The notes below the pieces were generated by a model that made no database searches, was not told the DNA's origin, and saw only the letters and a program-made list of their open reading frames with translations. A program made the translations under genes and the position numbers. A stretch of 64,000 nucleotides of DNA from Mycolicibacterium baixiangningiae (GTDB taxonomy: Bacteria; Actinomycetota; Actinomycetes; Mycobacteriales; Mycobacteriaceae): contig NZ_CP066218.1 of NCBI RefSeq assembly GCF_016313185.1, positions 3,906,001 to 3,970,000 on the forward strand, read 5' to 3'. Numbering within the stretch: the stretch's first letter is position 1; each line of letters starts with the position of its first letter. This document shows positions 15,588 to 19,708 of the stretch, one piece after another.

Positions 15588-19043
<3,456 letters not shown>

Positions 19044-19094: not shown

Positions 19095-19128
19095 AAAAAA
19101 CCCCCGACAGCGGGCCGCTGTTCGAGGG
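19095..19128 (-). terminator. Attenuator terminator in the ilvBNC leader
   Basis: On the minus strand CCCTCGA(A)CAGC pairs with GCTGTCGGGGG around a GGCCC loop. This is an 11-bp GC-rich stem with one bulge and one G-U pair, and it is followed directly by TTTTTT. It lies between the leader peptide and ilvB, inside the transcript, so it fits an attenuator. It is the clearest intrinsic terminator in the window. Confidence 0.85.
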
Positions 19129-19129
19129 T

Positions 19130-19185
19130 GGCGCGTCGATGCTGTGGCTATGCCCGGCAGAGGGCCAGCGCGGCATCAACGCGCC
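19130..19185 (-). promoter_or_regulatory. Leader RNA pairing segments ahead of the ilvB attenuator
   Basis: On the minus strand GGCGCGTTGAT (19185-19175, within the leader peptide codons) can pair over 11 bp, with one G-U, with ATCGACGCGCC (19140-19130), which lies next to the terminator's 5' arm. A ribosome stalled at the Val-Val-Ile codons (19198-19190) would cover the first segment and free the second. How this feeds into terminator choice is not resolved by eye. Confidence 0.5.
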
Positions 19186-19219
19186 AACCAATTACTACTC
19201 GCATCCCCGGGGTCTGCAT
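19148..19219 (-). CDS. ilvBNC leader peptide (attenuation)
   Basis: This is a 23-residue open frame with start ATG 19219 and stop TAG at 19150-19148. It encodes Val-Val-Ile at residues 8-10, Val at 14, and Leu-Ala-Leu at 18-20, so all three products of the ilv/leu pathways are represented. It is followed by an intrinsic terminator before ilvB. Leader-peptide attenuation of ilvBNC is established in Corynebacterium glutamicum. A promoter (TTGACC, 18 bp, TACCGT) places +1 within 2 nt of the ATG, so it is probably read from a leaderless mRNA. A second in-frame ATG lies at residue 6. Expression is inferred. Confidence 0.78.
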
Positions 19220-19227
19220 AACACTCG

Positions 19228-19257
19228 ACGGTAGCCTCCGCACTGGTCACTGGTCAA
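19228..19257 (-). promoter_or_regulatory. Promoter of the ilvBNC leader
   Basis: On the minus strand TTGACC (19257-19252) and TACCGT (19233-19228) are separated by 18 bp. The predicted +1 is near 19221, 2 nt before the leader ATG. The heptamer ACTGGTC is tandemly repeated (19242-19255, + strand), overlapping the -35 box and spacer, and could bind a regulator. Confidence 0.65.
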
Positions 19258-19309: not shown

Positions 19310-19708
19310 GTGAGCTCTTCTGACGCGTCGGCCCCCACCGCTCCGGTCGTCATCCGGATACCGGCGACCGCGCACCTCGCGGTCGGCTTCTTCACGCTGG
19401 GGTTGTTCTCGATCGTGTTGGCCAATCCGCGCTGGTTCGCCCCGCTGCTGGTGATTCCGGTGGTGGCCTCACTGCTCGTCGTCCGTCTGCGCACGGTGGC
19501 CGAACGCGACACGGTCACCGCCCGCAACCTGCTGGGCAGCCGGACGGTGGCGTGGGACGACATCGAGGGGCTTCGATTCAGCAGGGCGTCATGGGCCCGC
19601 GCGACGCTCAAGGACGGCACCGAGGTGCGCCTGCCCGCGGTGACGTTCGGCACGCTGCCGCGGTTGACGGCGGCCAGCGGCGGGCGGGTGCCGAACCCGT
19701 ATCAGTGA
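19310..19708 (+). CDS. bPH-domain membrane protein (Cfp6-like)
   Basis: 132 residues. Two adjacent hydrophobic helices (HLAVGFFTLGLFSIVLA and APLLVIPVVASLLVV) are followed by a short bacterial PH-like domain (LLGSRTVAWDDIEGLRFSR). This is the architecture of mycobacterial Cfp6/Rv3004. The start is GTG 19310; in-frame codons upstream overlap the ilvB promoter. Its function is unknown. It ends 9 bp before the convergent DoxX gene. Confidence 0.82.
   Translation: MSSSDASAPTAPVVIRIPATAHLAVGFFTLGLFSIVLANPRWFAPLLVIPVVASLLVVRLRTVAERDTVTARNLLGSRTVAWDDIEGLRFSRASWARATLKDGTEVRLPAVTFGTLPRLTAASGGRVPNPYQ

Follow-up and report, generated by a model that had tools for sequence, protein, structure and literature searches.

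Organization of the Leader Upstream of ilvBNC

The stretch of DNA analyzed here (the window, 64 kb) carries on its minus strand the genes ilvB, ilvN, and ilvC, in this order according to Pfam, preceded by a short leader (Table 1). The promoter has the geometry TTGACC, 18 nt, TACCGT, 8 nt, and then the ATG at 19219, which opens a leader peptide frame (uORF) where Val, Ile, or Leu occupies six of the 23 codons (V, V, I, V, L, L). Counted from this ATG, the U-tract of an intrinsic terminator ends at +125 and ilvB begins at +177. An earlier note on this DNA had described the promoter, the ATG, the 23-codon frame with its stop at 19150-19148, and the placement of leader and terminator before the ilvB GTG at 19043; all of these lie exactly where it put them, and Pfam agrees on the three genes. 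The T6 tract of the terminator was also correctly located, and the stem, given in the note as 11 bp, is slightly longer in the MFE fold, with 13 pairs and one bulge (5′ side 19129-19122 and 19120-19116). Taken alone, this hairpin has a predicted energy of -19.8 kcal/mol.

Table 1. Leader elements and genes of the ilvBNC locus, in window coordinates.
Feature	Position	Strand	Basis
-35 box TTGACC	19257-19252	-	Sequence; TTGAC[G/C/T] with an 18-nt spacer in 116/118 rows (window counted twice)
-10 box TACCGT	19233-19228	-	Sequence; TACCGT in 109/118 rows (window counted twice)
Putative transcription start, at or beside the A of the uORF ATG (leaderless)	19219	-	Inference from -10-to-start spacing
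Leader peptide uORF, 23 codons, stop TAG 19150-19148	19219..19148	-	Sequence and frame conservation
Control codons GTA GTA ATT (Val Val Ile)	19198..19190	-	Codon comparison of leaders
Codon CGA (Arg) in place of the usual Leu control codon	19201-19199	-	Codon comparison of leaders
Presumed antiterminator 5′ arm, within the uORF	19185..19175	-	Folds, consensus structure
Presumed antiterminator 3′ arm, directly upstream of the terminator stem	19140..19130	-	Folds, consensus structure
Intrinsic terminator hairpin and T6 tract (T6 = 19100-19095)	19129..19095	-	Sequence, MFE, RNAalifold; termination predicted
ilvB, acetohydroxyacid synthase large subunit, regulated gene, GTG start 19043	17148..19043	-	Pfam TPP_enzyme N/M/C
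ilvN, acetolactate synthase small subunit	16636..17148	-	Pfam ALS_ss_C and ACT
ilvC, ketol-acid reductoisomerase	15588..16601	-	Pfam KARI_N and KARI_C

Over both strands of the 64-kb window, a leader-type pattern made up of a -10 box, a start codon 6-9 nt further on, a short frame containing three Val/Ile/Leu codons in a row, and then a T5 tract matches at one place, the ilvB leader, and the same pattern gave zero matches in 20 Markov-1 shuffles. A generic E. coli-style scan did not call the promoter at the ilvB leader because it requires an E. coli-like -10 box; its terminator call is in a different register (19116-19099).

On the other side of the promoter, a bPH_6 (bacterial PH-domain) gene is found in divergent orientation (19310-19708, plus strand). 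It begins about 90 bp from the putative ilvB transcription start, so that both promoters would share a short intergenic region. Elsewhere in the same genome, outside the window, a second acetohydroxyacid synthase (AHAS)-like large subunit is encoded (G000:C1:5778658-5780391, plus strand), 58% identical to IlvB over residues 36-626. Among the candidates scored (up to 10 in each genome), an IlvB match between about 323 and 1106 bits is absent from the rest of the 118 genomes. The gene was considered as the site of a second leader copy and rejected, since the leader profile does not match in L151, the 1.2 kb taken from its 5′ end.

Conservation of Promoter, Frame, and Spacing in Mycobacteria

A search for IlvB covered 118 genomes of the genus and gave a full-length match in 113; the genomes without one (G003, G059, G070, G111, and G112) were left out; with seven named mycobacterial records, this gives 120 loci, not all from different genomes. 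At 118 of these 120 mycobacterial ilvB loci, a TTGAC box and a TANNNT box are followed by a start codon 5-9 nt later, and the other two (L194 and L195) start too near a contig end for a promoter to show. The window is present twice among the 118 promoter-linked uORF rows (L001 and L082), and L006 is apparently the same genome as another entry, with an equal leader peptide, so that the loci are not all independent; merging identical leaders leaves 109 distinct ones. L155, with a VPVVP frame, failed the motif filter of the spacing and T-run rows and is included in the frame-distance count. When an iterated DNA profile of the leader was applied to 194 upstream regions, 149 of them gave matches.

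The distance from the start codon to GTAGT takes eight lengths (15, 18, 21, 27, 30, 42, 48, and 51 nt) and is divisible by three, with no intervening stop, in 118 of 118 loci. The spacing between -10 box and start codon is 8 nt in 110 of the 118 rows and 6-9 nt in the rest (window counted twice). Such a constant spacing is expected of a leaderless uORF, on which transcription would start at or beside the ATG. A T-run of 5-7 is present in 118 of 118 rows, the filter itself demanding at least four T, and the length from start to U-tract varies from 107 to 156 across the leader set. The window leader has the position upstream of ilvBNC and the promoter-uORF-terminator order that define the mycobacterial ilvB leaders. 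It also has the hallmarks of a ribosome-mediated attenuator, namely a leader peptide, predicted to be translated, that contains codons for the end products of the pathway, and an intrinsic terminator, predicted to be active, between the uORF and the structural gene. The earlier note proposed to judge its reading by the conservation of the frame and of the terminator in related species, where their absence would have told against it; both are conserved in mycobacteria.

Several variants of this layout were observed. In two close relatives (L084:3408-3563, minus strand, and L085:1291-1446, plus strand), the uORF is ten codons longer in frame (33 codons), and the L084 leader contains three consecutive GTA codons. 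Seven mycobacterial loci (L129, L144, L147, L150, L154, L170, and L173) have frames of type MDNGMLVVAHCALVVA (HC or PC), with Ala in place of Ile and a second LVV further on, inside the antiterminator arm region. The uORF-hairpin-terminator layout also occurs at 29 of 73 loci outside the genus. In Streptomyces and relatives (L023-L025, L027, L030, L032, L035, L040, L055, and L064), MRTRILV[LI]GxRVG frames come with CTC-GTA control codons and abutting hairpins. With the filter used, a -10 box at the start codon is absent from these Streptomyces-type leaders, which apparently represent the same device on a leadered mRNA.

Control Codons

Of the 218 paired valine codons in the 109 distinct leaders, 217 are GTA. 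GTA makes up 29 of the 1391 valine codons (2.1%) of 40 window ORFs, chosen by a crude script, and the other valine codons of the same uORFs are GTT (113), GTC (15), GTG (5), and GTA (3). The codon preceding GTA-GTA is CTC in 95 leaders and CTT in 7, with TTG and ATC in 2 leaders each. It is counted as non-Val/Ile/Leu in 3 of the 109, the window (CGA, Arg) and two others, one of which carries a third GTA at that codon. The codon following the pair specifies Ile, Leu, or Val in 100 of the 109 leaders. Three of the four residues of the Leu-Val-Val-Ile control set are kept in the window (VVI), and Leu is changed to Arg. The fixed GTA may be explained by codon rarity or by a constraint on the RNA, two explanations that these counts do not separate.

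Presumed Antiterminator and Terminator Helices

The segments 19185-19175 and 19140-19130, which the earlier note had proposed to pair, do form 11 paired positions, with one G-U, and the outermost pair, 19185-19130, is not conserved, being unpaired in 66 of the 92 relatives with letters there. The unguided RNAalifold consensus of the 109 leaders consists of two helices, the antiterminator core and the terminator. In the named structure, 93.5% and 92.4% of the cells are paired for the two helices (109 leaders), vs. 34-54% in slid versions. As for covariation, 75 cells are changed on both sides vs. 38.3 in shuffles, and the covariation score is 0.095 vs. 0.069; pairs changed on both sides (5 vs. 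4.9) and pair types (17 vs. 19.3) show no excess. Two of the five covariation measures thus fail to beat the shuffles, and most of the covariation support is due to one pair, which is G-C in 60 of the 109 leaders and A-U in 37. Overall, these alignments support the predicted pairing of antiterminator and terminator, mostly by conservation and modestly by covariation.

A distance of 14 nt from the first GTA to the start of GCGCGT is kept in 98 of the 109 leaders. If the front edge of a ribosome lies about 12-13 nt ahead of the A-site codon, a ribosome with the first GTA in its A site would leave the 5′ arm just free. A ribosome at the stop codon would extend to the end of the 3′ arm next to the loop, and both placements fit attenuation. 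The passages of PMC13236596 on footprints give a size of 26 nt, centred on the codon. An H1-like anti-antiterminator, formed by the control-codon region and the bases before the antiterminator 3′ arm, was also considered. It looks strong by eye in a few leaders and is not claimed here because the extent to which the control codons are paired in the free-RNA fold differs widely from leader to leader.

Two Hairpins That Abut Without Overlap

In the window fold, the antiterminator abuts the terminator without a shared base, and both hairpins are present in the MFE of the exposed RNA; the fold offers no shared arm through which they would exclude each other. The earlier note saw the paired segments as the link between peptide and terminator. 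This part of its reading is incorrect or incomplete, since the 3′ segment stops one base short of the terminator stem and has no base in common with it, so that the pairing alone is insufficient to explain antitermination. Both helices are kept in the exposed RNA of 103 of the 109 leaders; among the other six, four have an arm start inside the assumed footprint and are scored 0 for that reason. In the MFE of 105 of the 109 mycobacterial leaders, the helices follow each other with a gap of 0 nt, and in the other 4 they are 2 nt apart; all 29 leaders from outside the genus have a gap of 0-4 nt.

The MFE of all exposed RNA was tried as a test of exclusion and is uninformative alone, the terminator winning in four of four E. 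coli controls too. Therefore, capture was counted before the 3′ arm exists, on folded RNA that begins 13 nt beyond the first control codon and ends at the terminator apex. In the window, 0 of 13 terminator-arm bases are taken by upstream RNA. Among the 109 mycobacterial leaders at offset 13, the number is 0 in 83, 1 in 15, 2 in 2, 3 in 8, and 4 in 1. The E. coli controls, run at offset 13 only, give 9 of 16 bases for thr, 5 of 8 for trp, 6 of 13 for leu, and 9 of 16 for his. The mycobacterial count shifts with the assumed footprint and never exceeds 5 at offsets 7, 10, 13, and 16, the maximum being 5 at offset 7 (0 bases in 21 leaders), 4 at 10 (0 in 47), and 3 at 16 (0 in 50). In searches of titles, abstracts, and passages, no paper on hairpin abutment in mycobacteria came up.

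Relationship to Known Attenuators

This kind of control and its occurrence in the genus are already known, and the precedent given in the earlier note, which cited Corynebacterium only, was incomplete: the mycobacterial case is treated in the relevant passages of both PMC1262725 and PMC13236596. From sequence, candidate ilvB leader peptides and terminators were predicted in Corynebacterium, Mycobacterium, and Streptomyces (PMC1262725; Seliverstov et al., 2005), and the passage on Mycobacterium concerns the same gene, the same uORF and terminator, and the same genus. In the part of that article covered here, no ilvB antiterminator is described and the mode of regulation is left open.

For the M. 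tuberculosis ilvB1NC leader, the passages concerned of PMC13236596 (2026) report that an abundant terminated RNA of about 120 nt ends in the leader, that the uORF carries ribosome footprints, and that the induction caused by an IlvB1 inhibitor is abolished when LVVI is changed to AAAA; the uORF is said there to be conserved across mycobacterial species. The leader described in these passages and that of the window both have a uORF rich in branched-chain amino acids (BCAA), GUA control codons, and a terminator before ilvB1/ilvB. The U-tract ends at +126 and the gene begins at +168 in M. tuberculosis as given there, vs. +125 and +177 from the ATG in the window; that +126 and +125 lie so close carries little weight because start-to-U-tract lengths span the wide range noted above. 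The control residues are LVVI in M. tuberculosis as described there and RVVI in the window. Finally, the M. tuberculosis hairpins are called mutually exclusive in those passages, whereas the window hairpins abut.

In C. glutamicum, the portions of PMC11857589 on ilvBNC describe a three-hairpin “fast attenuator” with a three-base boundary exchange. As presented there, it has in common with the window a leaderless or near-leaderless uORF (putatively so in the window), GUA as one of the control codons, and hairpins that meet at a boundary trinucleotide. It differs by a three-base overlap and a proposed anti-antiterminator H1, whereas boundary pairing in the window would need more exposed RNA than a Val stall gives. 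The ilvB-II motif, in the part of PMC10272879 that deals with it, is described in Corynebacterium only. The trp, leu, his, and thr attenuators of E. coli share with the control proposed for the window the stalling of a ribosome on leader-peptide control codons before an intrinsic terminator. In contrast, upstream RNA captures 5-9 terminator-arm bases in E. coli, vs. none in the window and at most 4 in mycobacteria (offset 13).

Proposed Mechanism and Alternative Readings

We consider that the element is the transcription attenuator of ilvBNC in this mycobacterium, working by ribosome stalling from a leaderless uORF, with a probability of about 0.92. This reading, which the earlier note had proposed, is supported because the promoter-start spacing is conserved together with the frame and the terminator in mycobacteria, GTAGT is in frame, GTA is chosen, the 14-nt distance is kept, the helices appear in the consensus, the layout recurs outside the genus, and the published prediction for Mycobacterium and tests in M. 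tuberculosis agree. Its counterpoints are that no terminator arm is captured, that both hairpins coexist in the MFE, that covariation is partial, and that the Leu control codon is lost in the window. A constitutive terminator next to an unrelated short frame, with termination tuned by polymerase speed and without sensing, would account for a hairpin that is strong on its own, and control-codon substitutions in S. coelicolor ilvB are reported in the part of PMC1262725 covered to have had no effect, a result that also speaks against the attenuation reading. The invariant rare GTA codons, the conserved frame, the fixed distance from codon to arm, and the effect of LVVI-to-AAAA in M. tuberculosis, as given in the passages of PMC13236596 concerned, argue against such a terminator and make it very improbable. 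That a metabolite-binding riboswitch lies upstream of ilvB has a parallel in the ppGpp riboswitches that precede ilvB in Firmicutes, according to the portion of PMC10272879 on them. However, with Rfam at the gathering threshold, two tRNAs elsewhere and nothing on the leader were matched, and below this threshold, up to E = 5, a chance match only was obtained; no covariance model of a listed riboswitch, for ppGpp or otherwise, is matched, and the frame is strictly conserved. We therefore give this possibility hardly any weight.

According to the attenuation reading, RNA polymerase would start at or beside the ATG of the uORF, and a 70S ribosome would initiate on the leaderless 5′ end. With ample charged Val (or Ile) tRNA, the ribosome would reach the stop codon and cover that part of the antiterminator 3′ arm which is nearest the loop; the terminator could then form and transcription would end at 19100-19095, a termination that others have measured in M. 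tuberculosis. Under a shortage of Val or Ile, it would stall on GTA-GTA-ATT with its front edge just before GCGCGTTGAT, which would pair with ATCGACGCGC, so that the polymerase would pass into ilvB. The two hairpins would exclude each other by competition for two to three boundary bases (ACC 19129-19127 with GGT 19189-19187), by a misfit of the abutting helices in the exit channel, or by both.

The first of these possibilities, to which we grant not quite an even chance, keeps the same attenuator and makes the switch a short boundary exchange in the style of the C. glutamicum “fast attenuator,” GGT of codon 11 taking CC(A) at the terminator foot. In predicted folds where exposure begins 9 nt beyond the first GTA, at least one base of the terminator CCC pairs with RNA upstream of the GCGCG arm in 78 of the 109 leaders, and at least two do so in 69, the window included. 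When the five bases before GCGCG are randomised, at least two are paired in only 137 of 545 cases, an excess that does not amount to 109 independent events since the leaders are related. A boundary GCC trinucleotide, at which mutations have 7-8-fold effects, is proposed in the portions of PMC11857589 concerned. However, the exchange requires a ribosome 3-4 nt further back than the first Val codon; with RNA exposed from +13, a single C is paired in 9 of the 109 leaders, and none in the window. Moreover, 40 of the 109 leaders are without two or more boundary pairs, and the Leu codon, the expected stall site, is lost in the window. Exclusion by boundary bases is thus possible in the model if the RNA from codon 11 is exposed; a stall one codon further back would make the exchange possible, and a stall on the first Val would leave only abutment.

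The other possibility, a tentative one with the odds against it, also keeps the attenuator and invokes a steric block. Both helices fit in free RNA, and within the exit channel a rigid abutting helix would stop the terminator foot from zipping. The helix spacers reported above, inside and outside the genus, speak for it, although they are taken from predicted folds. A weak literature search on such a block listed no paper. Out of the genus, codon 11 is not always Gly (Pro, Thr, or Arg in some leaders), so that the spacing persists in leaders whose boundary pairing may be lost.

From these observations, it is conceivable, if somewhat doubtful, that actinobacterial ilvB leaders represent a distinct attenuator design. 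The antiterminator would steal no terminator arm; instead, two compatible hairpins would abut, and their exclusion would be confined to the time of transcription, either at 0-3 boundary bases or through crowding inside the RNA exit channel. The gate would be a ribosome on the invariant, rare GTA codons 14 nt away.

Significance for ilvB Control in Mycobacteria

The result confirms the published control of ilvB in one more species of the genus. To this, it adds the set of 109 distinct mycobacterial leaders, a near-invariant rare valine codon as the putative sensor, and hairpins that abut without overlap, the loss of the Leu control codon being a detail particular to the window species. Abutment makes the published term “mutually exclusive” testable, and it also bears on the strong effect of polymerase speed on the leader in published work.
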